A stretch of 64,000 nucleotides of DNA, from the NCBI RefSeq assembly GCF_001890385.1, contig NZ_CP018221.1:1289501-1353500 (forward strand). Reading direction: 5' to 3'. Positions 16,213 to 61,216 of the stretch are shown piece after piece (the stretch's first letter is position 1; each line of letters begins with the position of its first letter). Made by a program: the position numbers and the translations under genes. The stretch comes from Tardibacter chloracetimidivorans. GTDB taxonomy: Bacteria > Pseudomonadota > Alphaproteobacteria > Sphingomonadales > Sphingomonadaceae. The notes beneath the pieces were generated by a model. That model ran no database searches, was not told the origin of the DNA, and worked only from the letters and a program-made list of their open reading frames with translations.

Positions 16213-16237
16213 AACGCACGCCTTAGCGGTCGGTTCC
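16213..16237 (-). promoter_or_regulatory. EcfG-type general stress promoter for the small lipoprotein
   Basis: Read on the minus strand the site is GGAAC, 16 bases, CGTT, an exact match to the alphaproteobacterial EcfG consensus. It lies about 50 bases upstream of the lipoprotein ATG (16162) and overlaps the 3' end of the holin gene. The match and spacing are seen directly; use by EcfG is inferred. Confidence 0.75.
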
Positions 16238-16636
16238 CTTGGCCTTGCCCCATTGCCGCGCCGCGGTATAGCCCAGATACCCTGTTCCGAAGAGCGCATA
16301 GAGCGGTTCGGGAAGGCCGTTCAGATAGGCGGTCATGCCCCTGCCGATGGCCTCCGCCGTCTCCGGCTGCGCCGCTGCGATCAGCCCCATCGGGATGGCC
16401 CACAGCAGCAGCGCGTACATGACGTAGAGAAAGCTGGGACGCGCCCGGCTTGTCCACGCATCGGACGACTGCGCCTCCGCAACTATCGCAGAAAGCTGCG
16501 TTTTCAGCGCCTCCATTTCCTGGCTGCCTTCCAGCCTTATCAGTTCCAGCTTGGCCCTGTCTCGCGCCTCTGGATCGGGAATGACCCGGTCGATCAGCTT
16601 GCCGAGCGGGCCGATGACGCCTTCGATTATGCCCAT
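16223..16636 (-). CDS. GTA-type holin (3TM family)
   Basis: A 137-residue small membrane protein with an N-terminal charged, partly coiled-coil region (DPEARDRAKLELIRLEGSQE) and two or three membrane helices (FLYVMYALLLWAIPMGLIAA; ALFGTGYLGYTAARQWG). This is the layout of the 3TM holins of gene transfer agents, which let endolysin reach the cell wall. The ATG at 16636 follows GAGGAGGG. It is downstream of the endolysin gene with 13 bases between them. Confidence 0.75.
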   Translation of the reverse strand: MGIIEGVIGPLGKLIDRVIPDPEARDRAKLELIRLEGSQEMEALKTQLSAIVAEAQSSDAWTSRARPSFLYVMYALLLWAIPMGLIAAAQPETAEAIGRGMTAYLNGLPEPLYALFGTGYLGYTAARQWGKAKGTDR

Positions 16637-16649
16637 TCCGCAGCCCTCC

Positions 16650-17186
16650 TCAGATCCGCTTGTCCAGCCAGCCATAGGCGAAGGCTTCATTGGTGGGCCT
16701 CGCCTCGCTGAGTTCGATGTAGCGCGCGCCCTGAAGCGCATTCATCGCGCGCACCAGCACGCACGCGCCCGCCTGTCCCCGCACCCGCAGCAGCGCCCGC
16801 AATGCGCCGAGCGTCGCCGGACCGATGCTGCGGTCCACCGCAAGATCGGCCCAGTCGCGCCCGTTGCGGTTGAGCGCATTGAGCGCACGTTGCAGAAAGC
16901 CCACGGCAACGGCCGGGCTCATGTTGACGCCGGTGTCGAAAAGCTCCTCGGCCACCGCCGCCGCGATTTCCGCCACCTGATGGAAGCCGGGCGTCTCCCA
17001 GTAGCGCCGCCGGTAGATCGACCGCGCGAGACTTTGCGGCAGATCGGCCATGTCGCCCATGAAGCCTTCGCCGCGCGCGACGGCGCTGGTGATTCCCCAG
17101 TTCGTCGGACCTCCGCGATCGGCGGGATGATCGACAAAGCCACCTTCCTTCGCCAGCAGCCGGTCCAGGAGCGCATCCACATTCAT
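16650..17186 (-). CDS. GH108 family peptidoglycan hydrolase (GTA-type endolysin)
   Basis: A 178-residue muramidase of the glycoside hydrolase 108 family with a C-terminal peptidoglycan-binding region. The catalytic glutamate is Glu14 in AKEGGFVDHPADRGGPTNWG. The middle of the protein (RRRYWETPGFHQVA, VAEELFDTGVNMSP) is typical of this family. There is no signal peptide, as expected for release through a holin. The ATG at 17186 sits five bases after GGAGG. Together with the next gene it forms a two-gene lysis cassette without other phage genes. Confidence 0.85.
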   Translation of the reverse strand: MNVDALLDRLLAKEGGFVDHPADRGGPTNWGITSAVARGEGFMGDMADLPQSLARSIYRRRYWETPGFHQVAEIAAAVAEELFDTGVNMSPAVAVGFLQRALNALNRNGRDWADLAVDRSIGPATLGALRALLRVRGQAGACVLVRAMNALQGARYIELSEARPTNEAFAYGWLDKRI

Positions 17187-17285
17187 AACCGCCTCCATTC
17201 ATATGACGGAAGCGAAATAACCAATAAGGTTATATGTAGGACAGCAGGATTTTTTGCGGATGACAATTGGCGTTGGGGGAGAAAA

Positions 17286-17362
17286 TGGTCGGGGCGACAG
17301 GATTCGAACCTGCGACCCCCAGACCCCCAGTCTGATGCGCTACCAGGCTGCGCTACGCCCCG
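17286..17362 (-). tRNA. tRNA-Pro (anticodon GGG)
   Basis: A 77-nt cloverleaf on the minus strand beginning CGGGGCGTAGCGCAGCCTGG and ending with an encoded CCA. The acceptor stem CGGGGCG pairs with CGCCCCG. The anticodon loop reads CTGGGGG, which gives anticodon GGG for Pro codons CCC/CCU. The T-arm GGTTCGAATCC is canonical. It lies immediately upstream of the lysis cassette on the same strand orientation. Confidence 0.95.
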
Positions 17363-20028: not shown

Positions 20029-20442
20029 ATGACCGATCTTCACAGCTTTACCGCCGACGCCCGGGACACACGCCGGGCGATGTTGCTGGGACTGAAATCC
20101 CGCTGCCCTAGTTGCGGCGAGGCAAGGCTGTTCGCGCGCTATCTGAAGCCGGTCGATGCATGCCCGGCCTGCGGGCAGGACTGGACGCACCAGCGGGCAG
20201 ACGACCTGCCCGCCTATCTGGTGATACTCTTTCTCGGCCATCTGATCGTGCCGCTGGTGGTGGAGGTGAACCGCTGGGTCGCGCCGTCCGCGACCTTCCA
20301 GATGGTGCTATGGCCTTCGCTTACGGCCATTCTGGCGCTGCTGCTGCTCCAGCCTGTGAAGGGCGCCGTGATCGGCCTGCAATGGGCGAAATACATGCAC
20401 GGCTTTGGCGCGCCGAAAGCCGGGACCCACCGGAGCGATTAG
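20029..20442 (+). CDS. DUF983 family zinc-ribbon membrane protein
   Basis: A 137-residue protein with an N-terminal zinc ribbon (CPSCGEARLF and CPACGQDW; Cys26, 29, 45, 48) followed by two membrane helices (YLVILFLGHLIVPLVVEV; TAILALLLLQPVKGAVIGL). This is the DUF983 layout found in alphaproteobacteria; the function is not established, although some members neighbour cytochrome oxidase genes. An ATG 17 codons upstream is also in frame; the start at 20029 gives the usual N-terminus. It is divergent from the TetR operon. Confidence 0.82.
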   Translation: MTDLHSFTADARDTRRAMLLGLKSRCPSCGEARLFARYLKPVDACPACGQDWTHQRADDLPAYLVILFLGHLIVPLVVEVNRWVAPSATFQMVLWPSLTAILALLLLQPVKGAVIGLQWAKYMHGFGAPKAGTHRSD

Positions 20443-20606: not shown

Positions 20607-21773
20607 TCAGTGCGTCGATTTGCACACCAAATCAGTAATTATTGCTGCTGCGCGGTCCAGGCTTGCGGTCGAAATCTCCCCCAGGGCTTCACGCGCGCCC
20701 TTCTGTTGCGCATCTTTGTAGGCAGAGTGCTTCTGCTTGCTGATCTCCAATGCGTGGAAAAAATCGGTTGGTGTGAATGTTACATCCCCGAACCTGCAAT
20801 GTGCGTAGTCAGGGCTTTGCCGATAGTCGACTCTTTCAGGTAAAATGAAAACACATGGCCTCGGCTCGTAAATAAATTCGTAAACCTGGCTACTTACGTC
20901 GCCTACATATATATCAGCAGATCGCGTATACGTCATGTCAAATAAACGATCACTTGTTAGATCAGCCAATATGTTTTCGTCTTCGGACAACGATCTTATG
21001 AAACATATGTCTTCTCTCGAAAGACGTTCCACGATCCGAATGTGTGGAGCGAAAATCAAATTGAACTTATCTTGAGATTTAAAGTAGGAAATAATATCTT
21101 TTCCATATTTCCACCATGAAGACAGTTTTTCGTCGAAATGAGGGTTGTAAATCACAGTGTCTCGATTGTTATCGAAGAGCTTGGGTAAATTCGGACTGAT
21201 TTTGTGAACCGCAGCGGCCTTGATATAGCCCGACACGCTGCATGTGGAAGCAGTGACGACCCCCTCCTTGATCATTCGGTCTTTATCTTTTTCGCCTGCC
21301 ACGATGACATGATCAAATAGCTTGATACGCGGTTCGAAACCTTTCGCTCTATCGCCAGCGCCATGGGGAATATGAATTAAAAAGGGTTTAGGACCAGGAA
21401 TTCGTTTCAATAACGTCGAGGTTCGCTCTGCCACGACGAGGGCAGACAAAGATCGGAAGCGCTTCCTGTGACTGAGCAGGATGGGCACCTTTAGATCGGC
21501 CCATTTCGCGTTTAGTTTCCCAACAAATCCTAGCCACGAAGGTAGCTTAAGCGTAATAACCTGAACGTTGGCTTTGCCTAGTTTGGACAAAAGGCTCCGA
21601 CAGGCCGACGCTTCCTCCTCCGACGTGACGAATACTAAAGCTTCGATACCGGAGGATAATGATGCGGCGGCTGGCACCAAGTGAAGAATATGATGCATGC
21701 CTCCTAAAAGAAGGAATCCAACGGTCTTCTTCGCTGCGCTTGCCCGCCCGATGCCGGGTTGATTCCTCGCCAC
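20607..21773 (-). CDS. CDP-glycerol glycerophosphotransferase/GT-B-like protein on an AT-rich island
   Basis: A 388-residue protein of a GT-B-like fold. The C-terminal part ADIYVGDVSSQVYEFIYEP resembles the DYSS...FDY motif of TagB/TagF glycerophosphotransferases, and FLIHIPHGAGD resembles their HG loop, so it may add a phosphate-linked sugar or polyol to a surface polymer. The assignment is by motif only. Base composition is strikingly low in GC (about 27-48% in individual 60-base lines, neighbours well above 60%), with codon use to match, so recent acquisition is likely. The GTG at 21773 follows GGGAG; the frame stays open up to 21893, inside the pnp terminator, so longer starts are doubtful. 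Confidence 0.6.
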   Translation of the reverse strand: MARNQPGIGRASAAKKTVGFLLLGGMHHILHLVPAAASLSSGIEALVFVTSEEEASACRSLLSKLGKANVQVITLKLPSWLGFVGKLNAKWADLKVPILLSHRKRFRSLSALVVAERTSTLLKRIPGPKPFLIHIPHGAGDRAKGFEPRIKLFDHVIVAGEKDKDRMIKEGVVTASTCSVSGYIKAAAVHKISPNLPKLFDNNRDTVIYNPHFDEKLSSWWKYGKDIISYFKSQDKFNLIFAPHIRIVERLSREDICFIRSLSEDENILADLTSDRLFDMTYTRSADIYVGDVSSQVYEFIYEPRPCVFILPERVDYRQSPDYAHCRFGDVTFTPTDFFHALEISKQKHSAYKDAQQKGAREALGEISTASLDRAAAIITDLVCKSTH

Positions 21774-21890
21774 GTAACTCCCGCCTTTCCAACCGGCCCG
21801 GCGCTTATGATCATTGCTGACTTTTGTATAGAGTTTCCACTGGAAATGCTGCGCCTGATGCTGGAAGAACATCGGCCTCCTGCCTCTAAA

Positions 21891-21918
21891 CAAAAAAGGG
21901 AGGCCGAAGCCTCCCTTT
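21891..21918 (-). terminator. rho-independent terminator of pnp
   Basis: A 10-bp perfect stem (AAAGGGAGGC/GCCTCCCTTT) with a four-base loop, followed on the minus strand by TTTTTTG. It lies 28 bases beyond the pnp stop and closes the rimP-pnp operon. Confidence 0.9.
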
Positions 21919-21945: not shown

Positions 21946-24288
<2,343 letters not shown>

Positions 24289-24377
24289 CTGGCTAGCTGC
24301 CTTTTCCATGCCGGCAGCCCTATCGCCGCCAGCTTTCCTTCAGACAGGGCAGGCGCACCGCACTCTGCCCCGGATGC

Positions 24378-44601: not shown

Positions 44602-45009
44602 TTATTTACCCTTGGTACGCTTCGTACCCAGGCCGATCTTCATCGCCAGGGAACGGCGCTGCTGCGCATAGTTGGGTGCAACCATCGGATAATCAGCGGC
44701 AAGTCCCCATTTGGCGCGATATTGATCCGGCGTCATGCTATAGTGCGTCATCAAGTGACGCTTCAGCATCTTCAGCTTCTTCCCGTCTTCAAGGCAGACA
44801 ATATAGTCAGGCTTGACAGATGAACGGATCGAAACAGCCGGCTGCGGCTTCTCGTCCAAAGGCTTCTGAGCTGCTCCCGCACCAGCAAGCGCACCATGCA
44901 CATTCTGGATCAGCGTCGGGAGATCGTTTACGGCAACAGTGTTGTTGCTGACATGGGCCGATACGATGTCGGCGGTTAAGGTGATCAACGTCTCGTTATT
45001 GTTTTCCAT
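44602..45009 (-). CDS. MucR/Ros family transcriptional regulator
   Basis: A 135-residue zinc-finger regulator. The DNA-binding part IVCLEDGKKLKMLKRHLMTH contains the Cys-Asp-His-His metal ligands of the Ros/MucR family, with MTPDQYRAKWGLAADYPMVA after it. MucR proteins bind AT-rich sites and repress exopolysaccharide, motility and cell-cycle genes as H-NS-like proteins. The ATG at 45009 follows GGAG with a 7-base spacer. Confidence 0.94.
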   Translation of the reverse strand: MENNNETLITLTADIVSAHVSNNTVAVNDLPTLIQNVHGALAGAGAAQKPLDEKPQPAVSIRSSVKPDYIVCLEDGKKLKMLKRHLMTHYSMTPDQYRAKWGLAADYPMVAPNYAQQRRSLAMKIGLGTKRTKGK

Positions 45010-45086
45010 TACATGGCTCCGGCTTTTTGTTGGCGAACCTCTTGGCCACCGCCCTATTAACATTGACCGGCCGCAATACAAGTATC

Positions 45087-45566
45087 TTATCGAAGGGAAT
45101 CATTAACCAAGTCGAGCACCATTGTTGTTGCGTCCCGCAATACAGCGTCTTTTCCCCTGTAATATCCGCTCCTGCGGCCAACCGGACGAAATCCTGCCGA
45201 CTCATAGAGCATCACCGCATTTTCGTTGTCCGACCTGACTTCCAAATATATCCGCCGAACATTCCGGCGGCGGCACTCGACGATCACTTTATCCAGAAGC
45301 GCACGTCCATAGCCCCTGCCCCGCATTTTTTGGGGAACCGCAATCAACATCAGCTCGGCTTCGTCCAGTACCGACCGGGCTACGGCAAAGCCGCAGATCC
45401 GCTCTTCCACCTCAAGCACGAGCATCCAGTTACCCGGCCCCAGCAGAAGGGCCGATAACTGGGTTTCAGACCAGGCTTCGCCGTATAGCGGATCGAACGC
45501 ATCTTCCATCACCGGCATGACGGCCGACACATCGTGCCAGTCGGCGATGCGGATCACATGGTTCAT
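45087..45566 (-). CDS. rimI: ribosomal protein S18-alanine N-acetyltransferase RimI
   Basis: A 159-residue GNAT acetyltransferase. QKMRGRGYGRALLDKVIVEC binds acetyl-CoA, and the segment ERICGFAVARSVLDEAELML plus RRIYLEVRSDNENAVMLYES are the RimI pattern. Its position directly after tsaB with an ATGA overlap supports the RimI assignment, as the two genes are commonly paired. Confidence 0.88.
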   Translation of the reverse strand: MNHVIRIADWHDVSAVMPVMEDAFDPLYGEAWSETQLSALLLGPGNWMLVLEVEERICGFAVARSVLDEAELMLIAVPQKMRGRGYGRALLDKVIVECRRRNVRRIYLEVRSDNENAVMLYESAGFRPVGRRSGYYRGKDAVLRDATTMVLDLVNDSLR

Positions 45567-60712: not shown

Positions 60713-61216
60713 TCAGCTCGCAAGCGTATGCATTTCAGCGGGCGCAAGCCGTCCGGCCTTTGCTTCTTCCATCAGCTCGCTCTTGCGCGCCTGAAGCTGT
60801 TCGCCAAGCTTCTCAAGGTCGACATCGGCCTTGCGCGCCTGGGCGAACATGCTGTCGCGCTGCTTTTCCTCTTCCTTGACGTGATGCTCGATCTGCTCCT
60901 TCAGAACCAGCACCTTGGCGTCATAATATTCCTCATCGGGCTGGGCCTGCTCAAGCTCCAGAATCAGCGCCTTGGCCGAATCATGCTCGACATAGGCCTC
61001 GTCCAGATCATCTTCCTCGATCTTGCCGCGAAGCGCCGGATAGAAAATCTCTTCCTCTATACGGGTGTGGACATTCAGCTCGGTGCATATTTCATGGACG
61101 ATCTTCTGCTTTTTCTCAGCGCCCTTGGTCTTTTCGAATTTTTCGAAAAGTTCCTCTACCTTTCTATGGCCTTCGGCCAAAAGCTTCGTCGCGTCTGTCG
61201 TGCTCGACTTCGGCAT
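60713..61216 (-). CDS. hemerythrin HHE domain protein, predicted general-stress gene
   Basis: A 167-residue four-helix bundle protein with the hemerythrin metal-site pattern: EGHRKVEELFEKFE, ELNVHTRIEEEIFYPAL, YVEHDSAKALI and IEHHVKEEEK give the His/Glu ligands of a di-iron centre. A charged C-terminal helix follows. Cytoplasmic; related proteins bind O2 or NO or sense stress. An AAGGAGG Shine-Dalgarno precedes the ATG. A GGAAC-N17-GGTT site upstream (61244-61269) suggests EcfG control. Confidence 0.88.
   Translation of the reverse strand: MPKSSTTDATKLLAEGHRKVEELFEKFEKTKGAEKKQKIVHEICTELNVHTRIEEEIFYPALRGKIEEDDLDEAYVEHDSAKALILELEQAQPDEEYYDAKVLVLKEQIEHHVKEEEKQRDSMFAQARKADVDLEKLGEQLQARKSELMEEAKAGRLAPAEMHTLAS

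Follow-up and report, generated by a model that had tools for sequence, protein, structure and literature searches.

The AT-rich gene that stands alone beside pnp in Tardibacter chloracetimidivorans raises two questions: from where did it come, and what could its product be doing in this host? The gene was analysed within a stretch of 64,000 nucleotides of contig NZ_CP018221.1, which is referred to here as the window. It encodes a TagF-like (PF04464) transferase, was probably acquired, and occupies positions 20607–21773 on the minus strand, with a GC content of 47.8%. The open reading frame is intact and complete, with 388 codons (388 aa) and its end at 20607. The GTG at 21773 is its likely start; a GGAG at 21778–21781 on the same strand, read from the sequence and lying 4 nt before the GTG, is a possible ribosome-binding site, and an in-frame TTG at 21893 is a possible alternative start. 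A preliminary description, made from the sequence alone, had placed the gene by itself between a DUF983 gene and the pnp terminator, and these neighbours were borne out. The DUF983 gene lies at 20029–20442 on the plus strand and pnp at 21946–24309 on the minus strand, with a hairpin and T-run at 21892–21918 (minus strand), seen by eye and absent from the program scan, as the likely pnp terminator.

The same description had reported 60-base lines of about 27–48% GC amid clearly higher surroundings, and these figures proved roughly right. The 60-base lines of the gene range from 28.3 to 60.0% GC, with 9 of 19 at or below 48%; outside the gene, the window has 1045 such blocks, of which 11 are as low as that and not one is 30% or lower. 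Codon composition, one of the checks it had proposed, pointed the same way, with GC3 at 50.6% in the gene versus a host mean of 78.9% (sd 4.8; 308 called genes, each ≥150 aa, in a 419-kb portion of the genome that takes in the window). When the stop codon is left out, GC1, GC2 and GC3 are 51.8, 41.0 and 50.8%. The GC3 lies 5.8 sd below that of the 308 genes, a z value that is inflated because training on host genes makes the caller overlook AT-rich ones. A count that needs no gene caller found 3 equally AT-rich windows among 3302 overlapping windows of 1167 nt in a 355-kb sample from the rest of the genome, and 0 among 602 in the rest of the 64-kb window. The proposed tetranucleotide check gave no signal: the G+C-normalised distance of the gene is not unusual (0.289 versus a mean of 0.324), with 416 of 532 genome windows at least as far, and therefore the gene stands out by its base and codon composition.

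Among 132 loci of the family, the gene shows the largest drop in GC from its own flanks, 15.6 points. Most homologues are close to the GC of their flanks; the exceptions are L171, L125 and L121, with the next-largest drops of 12.9, 9.0 and 8.3 points. The L171 copy, which belongs to Gluconacetobacter azotocaptans, a high-GC host, is perhaps a second recent transfer. Since this copy is also much AT-richer than its surroundings, low GC alone is no proof of recent transfer.

Insertion into a conserved pnp junction was considered as a route of arrival and set aside, as the relatives examined share no such neighbourhood. Of 58 relatives searched, pnp loci were returned for 29, and neither DUF983 nor a member of the family was found beside pnp in any of them (flanks of about 1.5 kb each, about 0.7 kb in L064). 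In 14 relatives (L084–L097) about 12 kb downstream of pnp bore no resemblance to the window, the gene content 3' of pnp differing in all of them, except for one small gene in one relative, of which a weak trace was seen in a second genome too. The region downstream of pnp is a general, recurrent synteny breakpoint. The spot itself is not conserved, so absence from it in relatives is no evidence of recent insertion, and the relatives offer no conserved empty junction as a comparison. An insertion at the pnp junction, and the view of the preliminary description that cargo could land there harmlessly, are therefore conjectural. The preliminary description had proposed to check for the locus in close relatives, with presence in all of them at this spot as the refuting outcome; that outcome did not occur, which says little for a spot that is not conserved. 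No direct repeats flank the gene. The sole tRNA in the window, tRNA-Pro at 17286–17362, is 3.2 kb off and not adjacent, and an Rfam scan of the window gave no other family at gathering score.

A sample of 248 further genomes of the host's family contained 102 with homologues, at identities no higher than 47%. A scan of genome contigs with the window protein alone found nothing, and the same scan with the family alignment found matches, including the closest homologue overall at 49% identity; with identity no higher than this, the actual donor is not among the compared sequences. The tree places the window protein not with the sphingomonad homologues but in a group with seven others, from assemblies of Hellea, uncultured Caulobacterales and Neomegalonema, and the genes of these seven partners have a GC content of 40–53%. 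This eight-row clade has bootstrap/SH-aLRT support of 100/99 in a tree of 58 rows, hand-picked from a larger set of 121, and 99 with all 121 rows (L016, L052 and L154 left out for length, nine duplicates dropped). Several of its rows, including the window protein, have an unusual amino-acid make-up; six-state recoding, which is meant to blunt compositional attraction, removes part of this and keeps the clade, with SH-aLRT/bootstrap values of 97/98. A topology that unites the window protein with L002 and L003, the sphingomonad rows closest to it, was disfavoured (p-AU 0.015, for a group picked after seeing the tree). Because of its composition and its tree position, horizontal acquisition of the gene from a lower-GC alphaproteobacterial lineage of Hellea/Caulobacterales type is supported, in agreement with the acquisition that had first been suggested from its GC content.

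Relatives of the gene occur on 15 of 72,556 plasmid records; four of these 15 are typed as conjugative, and a conjugative plasmid of 24 kb is among the carriers. Phage records contained no family match, and none was confirmed in IMG/VR. Phage or defence cargo was considered and rejected, the gene having no match in PHROGs, PADLOC or phage records.

In a Pfam search, PF04464 (CDP-glycerol:poly(glycerophosphate) glycerophosphotransferase) was the sole family seen in the window protein, at 27.5 bits versus a gathering cut-off of 22.1 and over residues 231–356 only; an NCBIfam search gave no match. Only 23 of 58 family members match PF04464 at E 0.01 and 35 miss it. A PDB search with the single protein returned two matches only, near E 0.8, which were judged to be chance. 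A profile of 46 members found Cps3D (E 1.9e-5) and TarL (0.011) and no other PDB match at E ≤1, and a profile of 58 members gave weaker values (Cps3D 0.0046, UDP-GlcNAc 2-epimerase 0.014, TarL 0.057). The AlphaFold model, built with 58 sequences, is confident (pLDDT 92.5, pTM 0.91). Aligned with VIA-align, it retrieves five TagF entries first, at Z 23.3–23.6 (the best over 327 residues with an rmsd of 3.7), with UDP-GlcNAc 2-epimerases, tied with TagF, at 22.8, Bcs3 at 22.2 and TarL at 22.1; Foldseek alone ranks the UDP-GlcNAc 2-epimerases first. On the family and profile matches and this model together, our best call is a TagF-like GT-B enzyme. The GT-B/TagF-like reading of the preliminary description thus gains support from Pfam, a confident model and structural alignment; the structure prediction that it had proposed returned GT-B, with TagF at Z 23.6, and not a structure unlike GT-B.

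The alignment of 58 family members has 24 invariant columns, among them H137, H244, D292, S294 and S295. The codons for HGAGDR (residues 137–142, with H137, G138 and G140 invariant) lie at 21348–21365 and those for APH (residues 242–244, with P243 and H244 invariant) at 21042–21050, both on the minus strand. The motif that the preliminary description had cited, YVGDVSSQVYEF (residues 289–300; 20874–20909, minus strand), aligns with ITDYSSIIYDF of Cps3D and ISDYSSLIYEY of TarL. By analogy, H137, H244, D292, S294, S295 and the HGAGDR motif may be counterparts of TagF catalytic residues. The wall teichoic acid polymerases TagF and TarL (3l7i–3l7m, 8va1) are GT-B like the window protein, aligning over 311–327 residues at Z 22.1–23.6, and share its DxSS motif at an identity of 10–12%. 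TagF has a membrane-targeting N-terminal part, whereas the window protein is one domain without such a part, and the teichoic acid pathway that forms the context of TagF and TarL has no known equivalent for the window gene. The Gram-negative TagF-like capsule polymerases Cps3D (8qoy) and Bcs3 (8a0c) likewise contain a TagF-like/GT-B domain (Z 20.7 and 22.2); they are long multidomain capsule synthases, whereas no capsule gene was recognised beside the window gene.

A role in altering a surface polymer, which the preliminary description had suggested, is possible for such an enzyme, but the gene neighbourhoods of the family more often suggest a link with sphingolipid clusters and flippases. The commonest neighbour of 91 homologues is a Polysacc_synt-type flippase, present at 41 loci and adjacent in 34, followed by CDP-alcohol phosphatidyltransferases, nucleotidyltransferases, LptC and sphingolipid synthesis enzymes. 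Neighbours were clustered by BLAST single linkage, in which paralogues may merge, with Pfam run on representatives only, and the genes of relatives came from our own codon-model caller, which may miss or misplace genes. A sphingolipid-cluster or flippase gene lies within 9 kb at 63 of 90 loci, a cluster gene other than the flippase at 53, and a cpgA, CC_1157 or cpgD homologue at 39, these 90 loci being related to one another and not independent. The corresponding figure for pnp regions, a small control, is 0 of 14. Eight duplicates, L154 (truncated by the start chosen for it) and L113 (whose family gene went uncalled) were dropped before counting, homologues with no more than 1.5-kb flanks were not counted, and some contigs are short.

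The association differs between parts of the family. Members of the Sphingopyxis-type subclade lie inside sphingolipid clusters at 16 of 16 loci and those of the Caulobacter-type subclade at 23 of 25. The cpgA gene adjoins the family gene in 17 of 91 loci, while in the sphingomonad loci L101, L102, L112 and L114 the family gene sits between the CC_1157 and cpgD homologues. One locus (L016:181–2640) encodes a protein of 820 aa in which the family domain is fused to a Polysacc_synt flippase domain. In the window gene's own clade (29 rows), a cluster or flippase gene is near 11 of 28 other members, with more than a flippase in 5; the seven closest relatives have a flippase only in three cases and nothing in four, some of them on short contigs.

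In Caulobacter, the gene order is LptC2, family gene, flippase, aasR, cerR, acpR and spt, with cpgA and cpgD further along. The products are LptC, the TagF-like protein, the flippase, an AMP-binding enzyme, an epimerase, an acyl carrier protein and an Spt-type aminotransferase, then those of ten more genes, which include a CDP-alcohol phosphatidyltransferase and end with a nucleotidyltransferase. This cluster corresponds in number, order and functions checked to the 17 genes CC_1168 to CC_1152 of PMC11324152, and the Caulobacter family member is therefore CC_1167; the counterparts of CC_1161, CC_1160, CC_1158 and CC_1156 are named from gene order alone. The equivalence of ceramide kinase CC_1160 with ccna_01218 fixes the offset between the two numbering schemes, and CC_1152 accordingly corresponds to ccna_01210, which is CpgD (PMC11324152, PMC12275187). 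The CC_1167 homologue of C. vibrioides DSM 9893 (L137:9998–11122) belongs to the same sequence family as the window protein, with full-length homology at 38% identity, and scores 14.8 bits against PF04464, below the cut-off. Its gene is part of the sphingolipid cluster, with lptC2 on one side and the flippase gene on the other; the window gene, by contrast, stands alone. The two proteins fall in opposite halves of the 121-row tree, and orthology of the window gene to CC_1167 is not claimed.

Presence of the family also tracks that of genes for the synthesis of ceramide diphosphoglycerate (CPG2). Across 59 genomes, host included, the family occurs in 16 of 19 with a CpgD homologue versus 7 of 40 without (Fisher 1.3e-6, kinship ignored), and in 15 of 18 with a CpgA homologue versus 8 of 41 without, where CpgD and CpgA were scored with the host's own proteins as queries at E ≤1e-30. 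Keeping one member per repeated genus leaves the CpgD co-occurrence at 14 of 17 versus 7 of 39. The exceptions are three genomes with CpgD and no family member (G028, G035, G058) and seven genomes with a family member and no CpgD.

The host itself carries homologues of spt, acpR, cerR, aasR, the flippase gene, cpgA, CC_1157 and cpgD at C1:3.141–3.159 Mb, 1.83 Mb from the window gene; no sphingolipid-type cluster occurs in the window. Its CpgD homologue is 51% identical to Caulobacter CpgD, and the CC_1157 and cpgD homologues are 6 bp apart, no family gene lying between them. Beyond these eight located members of the sphingolipid/CPG2 set, a search with one query gave no match for a CC_1153-like gene, and cpgB and cpgC had no match within the 355 kb read. 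The window protein is the only PF04464 protein detected in the host genome and finds only itself there. Loss of a native family copy from the host cluster followed by replacement was considered and dropped, as no convincing scar was seen (best E 0.015). Separation of the family gene from the cluster is also seen in many relatives that have cpgD. Between cpgA and cpgD, the host's CC_1157 homologue (L205:17284–17715, equal to C1:3142284–3142715) matches the HIT domain PF01230 at 23.9 bits versus a cut-off of 21.5. CC_1157 has been termed 'probably unrelated' to phosphosphingolipids (PMC11324152); as its homologue is next to cpgA in several sphingomonad loci, it may belong to the sphingolipid pathway.

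From what is established here on its composition, its fold class, its place in the tree, the counts of neighbours and of co-occurrence and the gene set of the host, we propose that the window gene may be a mobile gene for a phosphotransferase that depends on a CDP-alcohol and acts on the head groups of envelope lipids, probably phosphosphingolipids. Beyond the fold assignment, we infer its catalytic activity, donor, acceptor, expression and cooperation with the distant cluster from gene context. The most likely donor would be CDP-glycerate, made by CpgD, which is a CDP-glycerate synthase (PMC12275187). At the inner membrane, the single-domain TagF-like GT-B enzyme would take phosphoglycerate, or a similar polyol phosphate, off its CDP carrier, releasing CMP, and pass it to a lipid-linked acceptor, most likely a (phospho)sphingolipid, and the flippase and Lpt-type transport proteins would then carry the product outwards.

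Published genetics limits where such a step could lie. Mutants of cpgD still make CPG (PMC12275187), so an enzyme that uses CDP-glycerate would act only at or after the step from CPG to CPG2 and could not be the CPG maker. CpgA has been proposed as the CDP-glycerate user for CPG2 (PMC12275187, PMC13228409), and the analogy with TagD and TagF is drawn in PMC12275187 with transfer assigned to CpgA. CpgA (CC_1159) would share the CDP-linked donor class with the window protein but belongs to an unrelated family, PF01066. N. eutropha, A. vinelandii and P. luteola are predicted CPG2 makers that lack CC_1167 (PMC11324152, section 9). Because CpgA is already proposed for the CPG2 step and these three organisms do without CC_1167, an accessory, extending or alternative head-group role would fit the known genetics better than an essential one. 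CC_1167 was itself called 'probably unrelated' to phosphosphingolipid synthesis and is absent from the mutant tests in the sections of PMC11324152 at hand, where its mutant cofitness is 0.57 with spt and 0.54 with CC_1159. Among the literature matches listed, CC_1167 as this gene appears only in that paper. Those matches, judged by titles and the starts of abstracts, assign no TagF-like enzyme to sphingolipids; most subscription journals lie outside their scope, and an earlier mention is possible. Several enzymatic steps of ceramide diphosphoglycerate synthesis are still without an assigned enzyme according to PMC11324152 and PMC12275187.

The sparse links in the gene's own clade, the polysaccharide-type neighbours of some relatives and the position of CC_1167 in the opposite half of the tree keep the sphingolipid reading evenly poised between right and wrong. 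The main rival, which we regard as rather unlikely, is a glycerophosphate or polyol-phosphate transferase decorating a surface polysaccharide (O-antigen, capsule or exopolysaccharide), by transfer from CDP-glycerol or a similar donor onto a lipid-linked glycan that a Wzx-type flippase then exports. The PF04464 match and the fold matches to TagF, TarL, Bcs3 and Cps3D agree with it, and the Polysacc_synt flippase family serves polysaccharides too. It also finds support in the relative at L098, which sits with glycosyltransferases and a methyltransferase, in the plasmid relatives near annotated glycosyltransferases and a lipopolysaccharide-type or 'teichoic acid' transporter, and in the 17 of 28 other loci of the window gene's clade that have no cluster or flippase neighbour. 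Against this role, the window gene itself has no recognised polysaccharide gene as a neighbour, the family follows CpgD and CpgA across genomes, and whole subclades lie in sphingolipid clusters.

Improbable, in our judgement, is an idle passenger, that is, a recently acquired and intact gene that is unexpressed or has no donor or acceptor in this host. The gene is solitary, no recognised partner gene arrived alongside it, its foreign codon usage is kept, and a promoter scan found no sigma-70-like match on its own strand between 20400 and 22000; yet that scan covered one promoter type, other family members are solitary too, the reading frame is complete with the family-invariant residues retained, and cpgD, the likely donor-making gene, is present in the host. 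We consider it very improbable that the protein is a GT-B glycosyltransferase or a relative of the non-hydrolysing UDP-sugar 2-epimerases, using a UDP-sugar and not a CDP-alcohol. The first rank of these epimerases in Foldseek, their distance of less than 1 Z from TagF in VIA-align and the weak match to the 58-member profile, ahead of TarL, would suit such an enzyme, but the window protein has no Pfam match to the epimerases, PF04464 being the only family in it, and both PDB matches of the 46-member profile at E ≤1 are TagF-like polymerases.

A wider claim may be drawn from the phosphosphingolipid reading, namely that CC_1167, the window gene and the rest of their family form an unrecognised class of TagF-like phosphotransferases that depend on CDP-glycerate and serve to build up or lengthen the head groups of phosphosphingolipids; we offer this as a tentative possibility, more doubtful than the reading of the window gene itself. 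If true, a teichoic-acid-type enzyme would be working on bacterial sphingolipids, and, since members travel on plasmids and alone, some bacteria could re-tailor their outer-membrane sphingolipids via one acquired gene. Ceramide diphosphoglycerate gives partial support to the survival of Caulobacter without LPS. The TagF-like family of CC_1167 is found repeatedly in such clusters, in sphingomonads and Acetobacteraceae as well as in Caulobacteraceae; it includes one flippase fusion and moves between lineages, and the oddly AT-rich window gene becomes a specific, testable acquisition and a candidate for an unassigned lipid head-group step.

Several smaller observations accompany these results. 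Response regulator genes, histidine kinase genes or both are found next or close to the family genes at L266 (plasmid pTB1), L267, L133, L150 and L163, which suggests that expression of those family genes is regulated. In the window, holin-like and endolysin-like genes at 16223–17198 (phrog_3427, phrog_315) adjoin the tRNA-Pro gene and are perhaps a remnant phage lysis cassette. Other genes of the window, at 44602–45566 and 60713–61216, have a lower GC content (53–56%) than the rest of it. Elsewhere in the host genome, L211, L208 and L218 (near 0.7, 0.1 and 2.3 Mb) contain uncalled stretches with a GC content of about 53–55%, which are possibly further acquired islands.
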